From Sulfurimonas crateris (GTDB lineage: Bacteria; Campylobacterota; Campylobacteria; Campylobacterales; Sulfurimonadaceae): 64,000 bases of DNA. The DNA lies in the NCBI RefSeq assembly GCF_005217605.1, contig NZ_SZPX01000003.1, positions 62,001 through 126,000 on the forward strand. The letters are read 5' to 3'. The first letter of the stretch is position 1. Each line of letters begins with the position of its first letter. Positions 9,530 to 13,541 of this stretch are shown piece by piece. The notes below the pieces were generated by a model. It ran no database searches. It saw only the letters and a list, made by a program, of their open reading frames with translations, and was not told the DNA's origin. A program made the translations under genes and the position numbers.

Positions 9530-9814
9530 TTAAAGAGCACGCAGAAGAGAGCCAAGCAGGACACTCATCACCTGCAATCCTATTATTATTACCAATGGTG
9601 CCAAGTCTAATCCATTAAAATTTGTTCTTATATATCTTCTGACCAAAGAGTAAGCAGGGTTAGTTACTCTATATAGAAACTGAACAATCGGATTAAACGG
9701 GTCAGGGTTTACAAAACTCAGCAGCGCCGTTATGATAACGACCCACATATATATATTTATAAGGGTAAGGGCTATCGCTCCAAGACCTTGAACTATATCT
9801 ATTAAAATACTCAT
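9530..9814 (-). CDS. YggT family membrane protein
   Basis: A small integral membrane protein of 94 residues with two hydrophobic segments (about 10-30 and 70-90) and the family-typical loop FVNPDPFNPIVQFLYRVTNP followed by YIRTNFNGLDLAPLVII. YggT proteins are linked to osmotic tolerance and membrane or division functions, but the biochemical role is unclear. It overlaps the end of the gltX paralogue by 4 bp, so it is translated from the same mRNA. Confidence 0.88.
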   Translation of the reverse strand: MSILIDIVQGLGAIALTLINIYMWVVIITALLSFVNPDPFNPIVQFLYRVTNPAYSLVRRYIRTNFNGLDLAPLVIIIGLQVMSVLLGSLLRAL

Positions 9815-11085
9815 TTTGCTATCTCACCTATGTAATTTTTTATATATTTATATACCAAAGCAATATCAGGACCATCTTCGGCTCCTGTTAAAATAATTCT
9901 TAGAGGTTTAGAAAAATTTTCACCCTCAAGTTGCGACTCTTTCATAATATGGTTTTTAAAATCCTCATACTCTTCAAAGTAGGGTGCGCCTTCAACAGCC
10001 TCTGAGACTGTTTTTGCGTCCTCTGCAAACTCTATAGGTAGCTCTTTTTTTGCAAAAATGGCACCTATTTTTGATTTTAACTCTTTTGTAGTTGAGGCTT
10101 CCTCAAGATATACGCGTGCCAGTTCGCCAATATCGGCATCTGCAAAACCGACATATCTAGAGAGCTCCTTTGTATCTAGAGCTCTTAGATGCTCTTTGTT
10201 TATATCTCTTAATATCTCAATATCAAAACACTCAGAAGATTTTGATATATTTTTGAGATCAAACCACTCTATGGCGTCTTCTAAATTAAAGATCTCTTTT
10301 GGTGGCTTATTCCCGATCAATATAAGATAATTTGCAATGGCTGAGGGCAGATAACCCTCTTCAAGAAGCCATTTAACGCTTAAATCAGCATTCTCACCTA
10401 CTATGGCAGGCAGATGCGCATATTCGATCTTCTTTTCATAGCCAAGCGATGTTCGGATCGTATCCTCTTTGGGTGCATCGCTTAGGTGCTCCTCATCACG
10501 GATGATTAAAGATATATCACTCAACATATCATCAATACCGCAAGCAAAGTTATAAGTGGGTATCTTATTTTCGTTCATTATGATGAAACTCTCCATATCT
10601 TGAGGCTTGAAAGTTATCTCACCTTTGATATGGTCTTTTATGGTTATCGGTTCTTGCGACTTTTTTATTCTCACAGTAAACGGATTTTCATTGTCAATGA
10701 CAAGTTCTGCAGGCAAAGAAGCGCATGCATCATCATATCTGTATGCCTCTTTGTTATTTTTGGCTTCTTCTCTCTTTTTTTCAAGCCACTCGGGTGAGCA
10801 AAAACAGTTAAACGCCTTAGCCTCGTGCAAAAGCTGCAGAGCCATCGCTGCATGAAAACGAAAATTTTGGCTTTGGTGGACTACATGAGAGTAACCAATG
10901 CCGAAAAGTTCCAAAATACCAAGTGTCTCTTCATCTTTTTTCTCTATGTTTCTCTCTTTATCCATATCTTCTATGCGAACGATCAAATCTTCACCTCTCT
11001 GCTTAGAGACAATATAGTTAAACAGGGCAATTCTTAAATCACCAATGTGAATATCGCGAGTAGGGCTGGATGTAAATCTTAGCAT
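9811..11085 (-). CDS. gltX: Glutamyl-tRNA synthetase paralogue (GluRS2-like) lacking the KMSKS loop
   Basis: It is related along its whole 424 residues to the GluRS2 of Campylobacterota, which in Helicobacter charges tRNA-Gln with Glu. The opening MLRFTSSPTRDIHIGDLRIA keeps HIG but has Arg where SPTG is expected. The usual RGEDH is RDEEH (196-200) and SNTPKQ is SDAPKE. Most tellingly, the KMSKR loop expected near residue 230 is absent: the sequence runs HLPAIVGENADLSVKW with no GKKMSKRD. The reading frame is otherwise unbroken, so it is translated but probably impaired or repurposed. It sits divergent from glnS and upstream of yggT. Confidence 0.85.
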   Translation of the reverse strand: MLRFTSSPTRDIHIGDLRIALFNYIVSKQRGEDLIVRIEDMDKERNIEKKDEETLGILELFGIGYSHVVHQSQNFRFHAAMALQLLHEAKAFNCFCSPEWLEKKREEAKNNKEAYRYDDACASLPAELVIDNENPFTVRIKKSQEPITIKDHIKGEITFKPQDMESFIIMNENKIPTYNFACGIDDMLSDISLIIRDEEHLSDAPKEDTIRTSLGYEKKIEYAHLPAIVGENADLSVKWLLEEGYLPSAIANYLILIGNKPPKEIFNLEDAIEWFDLKNISKSSECFDIEILRDINKEHLRALDTKELSRYVGFADADIGELARVYLEEASTTKELKSKIGAIFAKKELPIEFAEDAKTVSEAVEGAPYFEEYEDFKNHIMKESQLEGENFSKPLRIILTGAEDGPDIALVYKYIKNYIGEIAK

Positions 11086-11113
11086 TTCTATTCCTGCATA
11101 ATGTAATTTTGGA

Positions 11114-11153
11114 ATTCTATCAAGTTTTAGCTAAAGCTCGGATTTGATAGAAT
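11114..11153. promoter_or_regulatory. Inverted-repeat divergent promoter region between gltX and glnS
   Basis: A perfect 10-bp inverted repeat, ATTCTATCAA at 11114-11123 and TTGATAGAAT at 11144-11153, places an identical TAGAAT -10-like box on each strand, facing gltX and glnS respectively. A TTTAGCTAAA palindrome lies between the arms. -35 elements are poor. It could be a shared operator or mirror-image promoters. Confidence 0.5.
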
Positions 11154-11193
11154 ACACTTAATAAAAGTTTTAAATGAAAAGGTTTGGCAGATA

Positions 11194-13443
11194 ATGAGTG
11201 AACACAAAGATTTTTTACGTACAATAGTTGAAAAAGACCTAAAAACAGGCAAATACAAAAATATTATTACAAGATTTCCTCCGGAGCCAAACGGCTTTCC
11301 TCATATTGGACACGCTAAATCTATCGCAATAAACTTCGGTATTGCACGCGATTACAATGGGCATTGTAACCTTAGAATGGACGACACAAACCCTACTACA
11401 GAAGATACTAAGTATGTCGAAGCTCTTAAAGATGCCGTTGAGTGGCTAGGCTTTGAGTGGAAGGGTGATGTACGTTATACATCTGATTATTTCGACAAAC
11501 TTTATGCGTGGGCAATTGAACTTGTCAAGATGGGTAAAGCTTATGTTGACAGCTTAGATGAAGAGACTATGCGTGAGTACCGTGGTACAGTAACAGAAGC
11601 GGGAAAAAGAAGCAAATATGCCCATAGAAGCGCAGAAGAGAATTTAGACCTTTTAGAGAGAATGAAAAACGGCGAGTTTAAAGATGGCGAACATGTTCTG
11701 CGCGCGAAGATCGATATGTCTGCGGCAAATATGAAAATGCGTGACCCACTTTTATACCGTATACGTCATGCACATCACTATAGAGCAGGGGATAAGTGGG
11801 CAATTTATCCTATGTATGACTTTGGACACTGTCTCTCTGATTACATCGAGGGTGTGACCCACTCTATCTGTACGCTAGAGTTTGAGAACAACCGTGATAT
11901 CTATGACTGGGTTATCGACACACTAGGCTTAGAGCCTCCGCGCCCTTATCAGCATGAGTTTGCACGTCTTGGTATCAACTATACCGTTATGAGCAAAAGA
12001 AAGCTTTTAGAACTTGTTGAGAAGAACTATGTAAACGGTTGGGATGATCCACGTCTACCTACTATTGCAGGGCTTAGAAGACGCGGATATACACCTGAGT
12101 CAATACTCAATTTTTGTGACACAATAGGTATAGCAAAAGCAAACTCAACCGTGGATGTAGCACAATTAGAGTTTTGTATCAGAGATGATCTCAACACAAA
12201 AGTGCCGCGCGTTATGTGTGTTCTTGACCCTTTAAAAGTAACTATAGAGAACTTCGTGGGCAGCGAAGAACTTGACGCCTCATACTACCCGGATGACGTT
12301 CCTAAAGAAGGATCAAGAAAGATACCTTTCTCAAAAGAGATATATATTGAGCGTGAAGACTTCTCACAAAACCCTCCAAAAGGCTATTTCCGTCTTACGC
12401 CTGATCAGCCTGTACGTCTTAAGCATGCTTATATCATTACATGCAAAGAGGTTAAAAAAGATGAGAGAGGCAATATAACTGAGATCATTGCCGAGTATAA
12501 TCCAGAGTCTAAAAGCGGATCTGACACAAGCGGTATAAAAGTCAAAAGTGCCATCCAATGGGTAGATGCCACATCTGCTAAAAAAGTGGAGGTAAGACTC
12601 TATGACAGGCTCTATTCATGTGAAAATCCTGATGGACTAGATGATCTCAATCCTGATTCTCTTAAAATTATAAAAGATGCGCTTATTGAGCCTGCGGTTG
12701 TAGCAGAGAAGCCGGATGTGCGATTTCAGTTTGAAAGAGAAGGGTACTTTTATGCTGATCCAATAGACTATACGGACGCAAACCCTGTATTTAACAAAAT
12801 AGTAGGTCTCAAAGACTCTTATGCCAAAAAGAAAGAGACACCTAGAAGTGAATCTAAATCCCAGGTTAAAAAAGTACAGATCGACGGTGAAACAGAGCCT
12901 ATGAGTGAGAGTGAGCAAGCTCTATTTAACAAATACACGACTACACTTAAACTAAACAGTATGGTTGCGGACATTTTAGCTAGGGATGAAAAACTATCTT
13001 CTTTTTATGCTGAAGTATTATCAGCCAACAACTCACCTGTAACTATCGCAAACCTAGTAGCAAATGAGGTTGCAAGAGAGTTAAAAGAAAAAGAAGTGCA
13101 TGAGCTTCAATTTAATGCATCTGACGTAGCTAAACTTGTGCAAATGCTAGATGATGGCACCATCTCAAATAAAATAGCTAAAGAGGTTTTTGAAGAGATG
13201 GCTAAAAGCGGGGAAGACCCAAAGAGAATAGTTGAAGCAAAAGGACTTGTACAGATAAGTGATACTGCCGTAATTGAGCCTATTATCGATGATATAATCG
13301 CAAAAAATCCTGACAATGTAGAAAAGTTTAGAGCAGGGAACACTAATCTGCTTGGTTTTTTTGTAGGACAGGTTCTAAAAGCTACGGGTGGGAAAGCAAA
13401 CCCAAAAGTGGTAAATGAACTTGTTGCACAGAAGTTAAAATAA
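11194..13443 (+). CDS. glnS: Glutamine--tRNA ligase with C-terminal YqeY/GatB-tail-like domain
   Basis: Direct charging of tRNA-Gln. Residues about 1-555 are a standard GlnRS: RFPPEPNGFPHIGHAKS (HIGH), LRMDDTNP, the YDFGHCLSDYIEGVTHS region, and VMSKRKL as the class I second motif, followed by the anticodon-binding beta-barrels. Residues about 590-749 are an added helical domain (PVTIANLVANEVARELKE, DDGTISNKIAKEVFEEM, NLLGFFVGQVLKATGGK) matching YqeY and the GatB tail, as in the Deinococcus GlnRS. Well-studied Campylobacterota lack GlnRS, so horizontal origin is likely. The start has only a distant AAGG. Confidence 0.95.
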   Translation: MSEHKDFLRTIVEKDLKTGKYKNIITRFPPEPNGFPHIGHAKSIAINFGIARDYNGHCNLRMDDTNPTTEDTKYVEALKDAVEWLGFEWKGDVRYTSDYFDKLYAWAIELVKMGKAYVDSLDEETMREYRGTVTEAGKRSKYAHRSAEENLDLLERMKNGEFKDGEHVLRAKIDMSAANMKMRDPLLYRIRHAHHYRAGDKWAIYPMYDFGHCLSDYIEGVTHSICTLEFENNRDIYDWVIDTLGLEPPRPYQHEFARLGINYTVMSKRKLLELVEKNYVNGWDDPRLPTIAGLRRRGYTPESILNFCDTIGIAKANSTVDVAQLEFCIRDDLNTKVPRVMCVLDPLKVTIENFVGSEELDASYYPDDVPKEGSRKIPFSKEIYIEREDFSQNPPKGYFRLTPDQPVRLKHAYIITCKEVKKDERGNITEIIAEYNPESKSGSDTSGIKVKSAIQWVDATSAKKVEVRLYDRLYSCENPDGLDDLNPDSLKIIKDALIEPAVVAEKPDVRFQFEREGYFYADPIDYTDANPVFNKIVGLKDSYAKKKETPRSESKSQVKKVQIDGETEPMSESEQALFNKYTTTLKLNSMVADILARDEKLSSFYAEVLSANNSPVTIANLVANEVARELKEKEVHELQFNASDVAKLVQMLDDGTISNKIAKEVFEEMAKSGEDPKRIVEAKGLVQISDTAVIEPIIDDIIAKNPDNVEKFRAGNTNLLGFFVGQVLKATGGKANPKVVNELVAQKLK

Positions 13444-13466: not shown

Positions 13467-13541
13467 TGGTGACCCCGAGGAGAATCGAACTCCTGTAACA
13501 TGGATGAAAACCATGGATCCTGACCGCTAGACGACGGGGCC
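13467..13541 (-). tRNA. tRNA-Glu (UUC)
   Basis: A 75-nt cloverleaf on the minus strand with 7-bp acceptor stem GGCCCCG/CGGGGTC, anticodon arm CATGG-TTTTCAT-CCATG giving anticodon TTC, T-arm with GTTCGATTC, and an encoded CCA end. It lies just downstream of glnS, facing it. Confidence 0.97.

Follow-up and report, generated by a model that had tools for sequence, protein, structure and literature searches.

The gltX2 locus

The window, a stretch of 64,000 nucleotides from Sulfurimonas crateris (contig NZ_SZPX01000003.1, positions 62,001 to 126,000), carries a second glutamyl-tRNA synthetase gene, gltX2, between yggT and a divergently transcribed glnS (Table 1). The genome it comes from (G000) is 2.2 Mb in size, with an estimated completeness of 100%. 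The gltX2 frame begins with ATG and is open throughout. A tRNA-Glu(UUC) gene lies on the reverse strand at 13467-13541, 24 bp past the end of glnS, and thus glutamyl and glutaminyl genes cluster in the window.

Table 1. Features of the gltX2 locus, in window coordinates.
Feature	Position	Strand	Basis
yggT (PF02325), start codon overlapping the GluRS2 stop by 4 bases	9530..9814	-	ORF and profile match
GluRS2 (GltX2), predicted catalytically dead, putative pseudo-synthetase, 424 aa	9811..11085	-	ORF, profile match, alignment, fold match
Codon 389, Glu where active orthologues have Lys (reference K397); recurrent K to E	9919..9921	-	alignment
Helical domain 4 (reference residues 317-360), no significant relaxation of constraint	10030..10161	-	pN/pS, residue retention
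Junction codons 231/232, KMSKR loop absent (8 residues vs intact orthologues)	10390..10395	-	alignments and DNA
RDEEH replacing RGEDH, codons 196-200	10486..10500	-	alignment
Zn-type motif C94-x-C96-x20-Y117-x3-C121 retained, acceptor-binding/pZBD subdomain	10723..10806	-	constraint near normal around motif; motif class from PMC4381286
HIGD replacing HIGN, HIGH-type signature, codons 13-16	11038..11049	-	alignment
SPTR replacing SPTG, codons 7-10	11056..11067	-	alignment
Divergent intergenic region between dead gltX2 and glnS, 108 bp	11086..11193	.	ORF positions
GlnRS-YqeY fusion, intact HIGH and VMSKRK	11194..13443	+	NF011291, 1210 bits

The window protein scores 346.9 bits over its full length against TIGR00464 (gltX_bact; curated cut-off 289.95). 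It is not a GluQ-RS (YadB), since it falls below the cut-off of TIGR03838 (126.2 against 276.7 bits) and possesses a full-length architecture with a C-terminal domain. An AF2 model of modest confidence (pLDDT 69, pTM 0.62), which served for fold identity alone, matches GluRS structures end to end. Moreover, the protein groups with intact GluRS2 and co-occurs with a separate canonical GluRS1, placing it in the GluRS2 subfamily of the order. That GluRS1, a second gltX product which the sequence-only reading had presupposed, is encoded elsewhere in the genome (462 aa, KLSKR). Of gatCAB, which the same reading had proposed to look for, gatB is likewise present elsewhere in the genome, as it is in almost all relatives. 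AsnRS was not found in the window genome nor in 40 relatives. GatCAB should therefore still work, being needed for Asn-tRNA.

Alignment with intact relatives shows that the eight residues bearing KMSKR are absent between Glu231 and Asn232: intact relatives read LNDxGKKMSKRDDASSVKW and the window protein VGE--------NADLSVKW. No KMSKS-like substitute loop was found near the deletion in this alignment. The sequence-only reading had described an uninterrupted frame of 424 codons without a KMSKR-like motif and with SPTR and RDEEH in place of SPTG and RGEDH, next door to GlnRS, and all of this holds. In addition, the HIGH-type signature is altered, its His and Gly being retained and its Asn gone. 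GluRS2 of relatives without GlnRS keeps all of these motifs. The loop is also missing from the closest relatives, G134 (86% identity) and G031 (78%), and so the deletion is no sequencing oddity. Catalysis has very probably been lost.

The arrangement with an overlapping yggT is common to intact GluRS2 and to copies predicted to be catalytically dead (hereafter dead copies); the 4-base overlap occurs in six families, in almost every genome, whether the GluRS2 is active or dead. Of about 122 genomes, 56 have glnS adjoining gltX2, divergently in 42 (93-210 bp apart, in two families) and in tandem with glnS first in 14 (1-27 bp apart, also in two families). This adjacency is missing in families f3, f6 and f8.

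Loss of the KMSKR loop and the presence of GlnRS

The GluRS2 set comprised 174 sequences, 110 from genomes of the genus and 64 from others of the order. KMSK was lost in 120 of the 128 genomes with GlnRS against 3 of the 46 without it, the other 43 having kept it (Fisher p=6e-29, a value that ignores relatedness between species, which are not independent, and in which GlnRS-free genomes outside the genus are lightly sampled). The same pattern is found in five other GlnRS-containing families outside the genus. The KMSKR loop region, 23 residues long (P226 to L248), is reduced to 11-22 residues in most dead copies, with lengths that differ within each family. GlnRS motifs were intact in all 20 sequences checked.

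The three KMSK-less GluRS2 from genomes without GlnRS all come from draft assemblies that are 74-94% complete; a search of these drafts for GlnRS fragments returned none, the only matches being to the GatB C-terminal region and to GluRS. The eight exceptions among GlnRS-containing genomes include G025, G057, G252 and G363, in which GlnRS directly neighbours a GluRS2 that is still intact or nearly so. This is the pattern expected shortly after acquisition, and these intermediates thus suggest that GlnRS came first. The reverse outcome is seen in G354, whose intact GluRS2 is accompanied by a GlnRS remnant (L197, G354:C171; 47% identity) with 15 in-frame stops, 4 TAG and 11 TAA. GlnRS matches with one in-frame stop each were also observed in G038, G095, G127 and G280, reflecting either draft errors or early GlnRS decay. 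We also considered the U1-A72 pair of tRNA-Gln as a possible marker for the indirect pathway. This pair, thought to be used by GlnRS too, is identical in genomes with and without GlnRS, and we rejected it as uninformative.

With the active-site columns left out, a GluRS2 tree requires at least 18 changes for both traits, and its supported independent pairs number about 5 in the expected direction and 0 in the opposite one; a GatB tree covering 60 members of the genus needs at least 14 gains or losses of GlnRS and at least 12 changes for the motif loss, with pairs at 5 against 0, so few that a sign test can go no lower than p ~0.06. Together the two trees call for a minimum of a dozen switches (12-18). 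A GlnRS tree of 20 genomes follows neither of them; in it, G109 groups with G363, a member of another family, and the window genome with G013. Such groupings cut across the genus and suggest repeated transfer; horizontal transfer, perhaps of a linked glnS-gltX2 locus, is likely. The exact count of independent losses is uncertain because the GluRS2, GatB and GlnRS trees disagree in places.

Selection on dead copies and loss of the gene

Dead copies evolve under purifying selection. Omega was 0.12-0.36 in 16 close dead-dead pairs, with all 95% limits below 0.53. For the window genome and G134, the dN/dS comparison suggested by the sequence-only reading gave an omega of 0.147 [0.103-0.205] at a dS of 0.53; neutrality predicts 11 stops per lineage for this pair and none was seen. 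Across the dead pairs approximately 4-16 stops per lineage would be expected if evolution were neutral, and these frames contain 0. Close pairs of active GluRS2 have an omega of approximately 0.04-0.10, and therefore constraint on the dead copies is reduced yet strong. On the omega with G134, the open frame and the stop expectation, we reject the idea that the window gltX2 is a pseudogene. The order-wide association with GlnRS, together with this selection, strongly supports the earlier proposal that GluRS2, dispensable for catalysis where GlnRS is present, has been inactivated or repurposed. We consider it probable that the protein is retained under selection.

Retention is not universal. In G296 glnS runs straight into yggT, whilst sister genomes have gltX2 between them. 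Two further genomes, G362 and G396, have no gltX2, and their relative G169 retains a broken piece, making it the only genome with in-frame stops among the GluRS2 copies recovered alongside GlnRS. This remnant (L211) lies upstream of yggT and represents a decay intermediate, its relatives showing clean deletion. Clean deletions of gltX2 in several GlnRS-containing lineages indicate that the gene, or its role, is dispensable there. In three genomes with GlnRS (G044, G127 and G091) gltX2 and yggT both went undetected, a possible loss of the whole unit.

Constraint is modular

Relaxation is unevenly distributed along the dead copies. The ratio of pN/pS between dead and intact copies is 4.6 for residues 181-252, which contain the GEDH and KMSKR region, 2.3 for residues 1-72 and 2.7 for the anticodon-binding domain 5. 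It is 1.21 [0.88-1.76] for residues 73-144, the Zn-type subdomain, and 1.24 [0.88-1.78] for domain 4, neither of which is significant. Cys94, Cys96 and Cys121 are retained in 96-100% of dead copies, and the domain 4 positions K332, T340, K347 and K355 are K/R or T in 95-100%. Moreover, site-conservation profiles agree between dead copies of different families (partial rank correlation 0.60 with conservation in intact enzymes removed). Structure alone could account for the near-normal constraint seen in the Zn-type subdomain.

Residues of the ATP site and of the Glu pocket, which we assigned by presumed homology with Thermus thermophilus GluRS, have a mean retention over dead copies of 0.18 and 0.73, respectively. 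Sites invariant in intact enzymes have an average retention of 0.68-0.75 in dead copies. All five Glu-pocket homologues (T. thermophilus R5, S9, E41, Y187 and R205) are present in the window protein, and across dead copies R3 is kept in 99%, whilst Y178 and R196 are lost in more than 40%. Glu-pocket retention, taken with the YqeY/GatB tail, was considered as a sign of editing and rejected, as this retention is no more than average.

The dead copies have also become acidic, with a net charge of -16.4, and of -26 in the window protein, against -8.6 for active copies; GatB, used as a control, hardly differs (-13.8 against -14.9). K397 is replaced by E in 64% of dead copies, in all six families, and adjoins a lysine which we take to align with a tRNA-contacting lysine of T. 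thermophilus GluRS. Dead copies have lost basic residues that lie close to the tRNA path (R116, R171, K395 and K397), and aliphatic residues are their best-retained class (0.91). The acidification, the change at K397 and the loss of basic residues argue against simple tRNA binding. The sequence-only reading had offered tRNA binding without catalysis as an example of repurposing; in its simple form this is doubtful, given the 2.7-fold relaxation of the anticodon domain and basic residues lost or reversed to acidic.

A proposed non-catalytic role and its alternatives

We hypothesise that the dead GluRS2 is a pseudo-synthetase, its catalysis having been lost after the arrival of GlnRS and the protein having since been maintained by selection in a role without catalysis, which might be docking to GatCAB; we give this even chances. 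A GlnRS-YqeY would have been gained by horizontal acquisition, whereupon GluRS2, the maker of Glu-tRNA-Gln for GatCAB in GlnRS-free relatives, would have turned redundant. The sequence-only reading had called a mischarging GluRS2 useless or harmful. Redundancy fits, but harm is unlikely because gatB is present and AsnRS absent, such that GatCAB could amidate any Glu-tRNA-Gln. The adenylation and ATP site would then have been lost, through deletion of the KMSKR loop and alteration of HIGN and GEDH, along with part of the tRNA-binding charge. The dead protein would still be made and folded, and its Zn-type subdomain and domain 4 may carry the non-catalytic role. In Escherichia coli GluRS the Zn-type subdomain positions the tRNA acceptor arm, and in the Thermotoga maritima transamidosome it is the part in contact with GatCAB (PMC4381286). 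As the retained module is one known to touch GatCAB, docking to that enzyme, still required for Asn-tRNA, would be the simplest explanation; the alternative target would be the tRNA-Gln acceptor arm. Once docked, the protein might serve as a scaffold or control what acts on tRNA-Gln. Docking to GatCAB or to the acceptor arm is, on our analysis, the likeliest specific mechanism, with a probability still well below even. Only tentatively do we suggest the broader version, that an essential GluRS2 repeatedly became, on acquisition of GlnRS, a conserved subunit without catalysis in the machinery of tRNA amidation or of tRNA-Gln, with the docking module kept and the active site and anticodon reading discarded.

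The main rival, which we think unlikely, is that gltX2 is a harmless passenger, translated just for the sake of the overlapping yggT and selected to keep an open frame and a soluble, folded product that does not bind tRNA, the acidification and the loss of tRNA-binding charge being the adaptation. Wherever a family has the stop/start overlap, virtually all of its retained copies carry it, whether dead or intact; this is consistent with such coupling, as are the three genomes in which neither gene was detected. The recurrent change of K397 to E and the high retention of aliphatic residues favour this reading too, and the shift in charge with GatB unchanged is well explained by it. Modular constraint is less well explained: coupling requires an open frame and not a particular sequence, and an omega of 0.12-0.2 with two constrained modules exceeds apparent solubility needs. 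Moreover, several lineages dropped gltX2 but kept yggT, which shows that the coupling is easily escaped. Another possibility is that a useless gene is decaying slowly under neutrality and has been sampled before any stops arose. The broken G169 remnant and the clean deletions are end points of such decay, but the omega of post-loss branches and the expectation of stops that only G169 displays already disfavour this reading, leaving it extremely improbable.

Two further explanations were considered. The protein may be an accessory tRNA-Gln binder or a GlnRS partner, such as an Arc1p-like helper or an autoregulator. This would suit the frequent linkage to glnS, in tandem or divergently, and the continued constraint on the acceptor-binding segment, the acceptor stem being where H. 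pylori GluRS2 chiefly recognises tRNA-Gln (PMC9976931); the U1-A72 pair is compatible but not discriminating. The acidification, the K397 change, the relaxed anticodon domain and the absence of linkage in three families point the other way, and we regard such a partner as very unlikely. The dead protein might instead keep a form of catalysis that needs neither ATP nor KMSKS, for example trans-editing by hydrolysis of Glu-tRNA-Gln, an activity of the kind that Huot et al. (2011) reportedly described for the GluRS2 of H. pylori. The Glu pocket is indeed better kept than the ATP site, with R3 almost invariant and all five residues present in the window protein. However, pocket retention does not exceed the average, Y178 and R196 are often lost, basic residues near the tRNA path have gone, and no remaining active enzyme is expected to make Glu-tRNA-Gln. 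We judge trans-editing highly improbable.

Relation to known systems

By sequence and by co-occurrence with GluRS1, the window protein belongs to the same subfamily as the H. pylori-type GluRS2 (function of the H. pylori enzyme in PMC9976931), but it lacks the KMSKR loop along with further adenylation residues, and hence should not charge tRNA. Its retained Zn-type subdomain is the GatCAB contact in the T. maritima glutamine transamidosome (GluRS-tRNA-GatCAB, 3AL0; PMC4381286). Here, in contrast, the GluRS is predicted to be dead, GlnRS would supply Gln-tRNA and GatCAB binding is putative. A second GluRS without charging activity has been reported in T. maritima (PMC3927822), where it is a duplicate of the catalytic-domain gene with no involvement of GlnRS, whereas here a once-active, tRNA-Gln-specific orthologue appears to die repeatedly with GlnRS. 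HisZ and YadB/GluQ-RS similarly reuse a synthetase fold after duplication (review PMC9437257). Unlike dead GluRS2, GluQ-RS still adenylates and consists of the catalytic domain only, and HisZ derives from HisRS. Our search of that review's table showed no full-length dead GluRS2.

Dasgupta and Basu (2014; PMC3927822) reported that six of ten epsilonproteobacteria carry both GluRS2 and GlnRS, and suggested that the GlnRS of these bacteria may be non-functional; a search of their text for KMSKS gave no match. With GlnRS motifs intact in 20 sequences and GluRS2 dead in most GlnRS-containing genomes, the present data point the opposite way and call that suggestion into question. Dead synthetase paralogues are already known. 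The recurrent dead GluRS2 tied to GlnRS is new, and our literature search, which was partial in coverage, found no description of it.

Taken together, these genomes constitute a replicated natural experiment on the outcome when direct glutaminylation displaces the indirect route. Should a role for the dead protein be established, it would represent a widespread pseudo-synthetase in core translation, directly testable by removal; if it is indeed a subunit, this is a recurrent switch from enzyme to pseudoenzyme with at least a dozen replicates. Dead genes are annotated as glutamate--tRNA ligase across the order, and consequently the presence of 'gltX2' falsely suggests an active indirect pathway. 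A more distant GluRS2, from a MAG titled Campylobacteraceae (DT_9; L009), also has the loop deleted and carries RDEIY in place of RGEDH.
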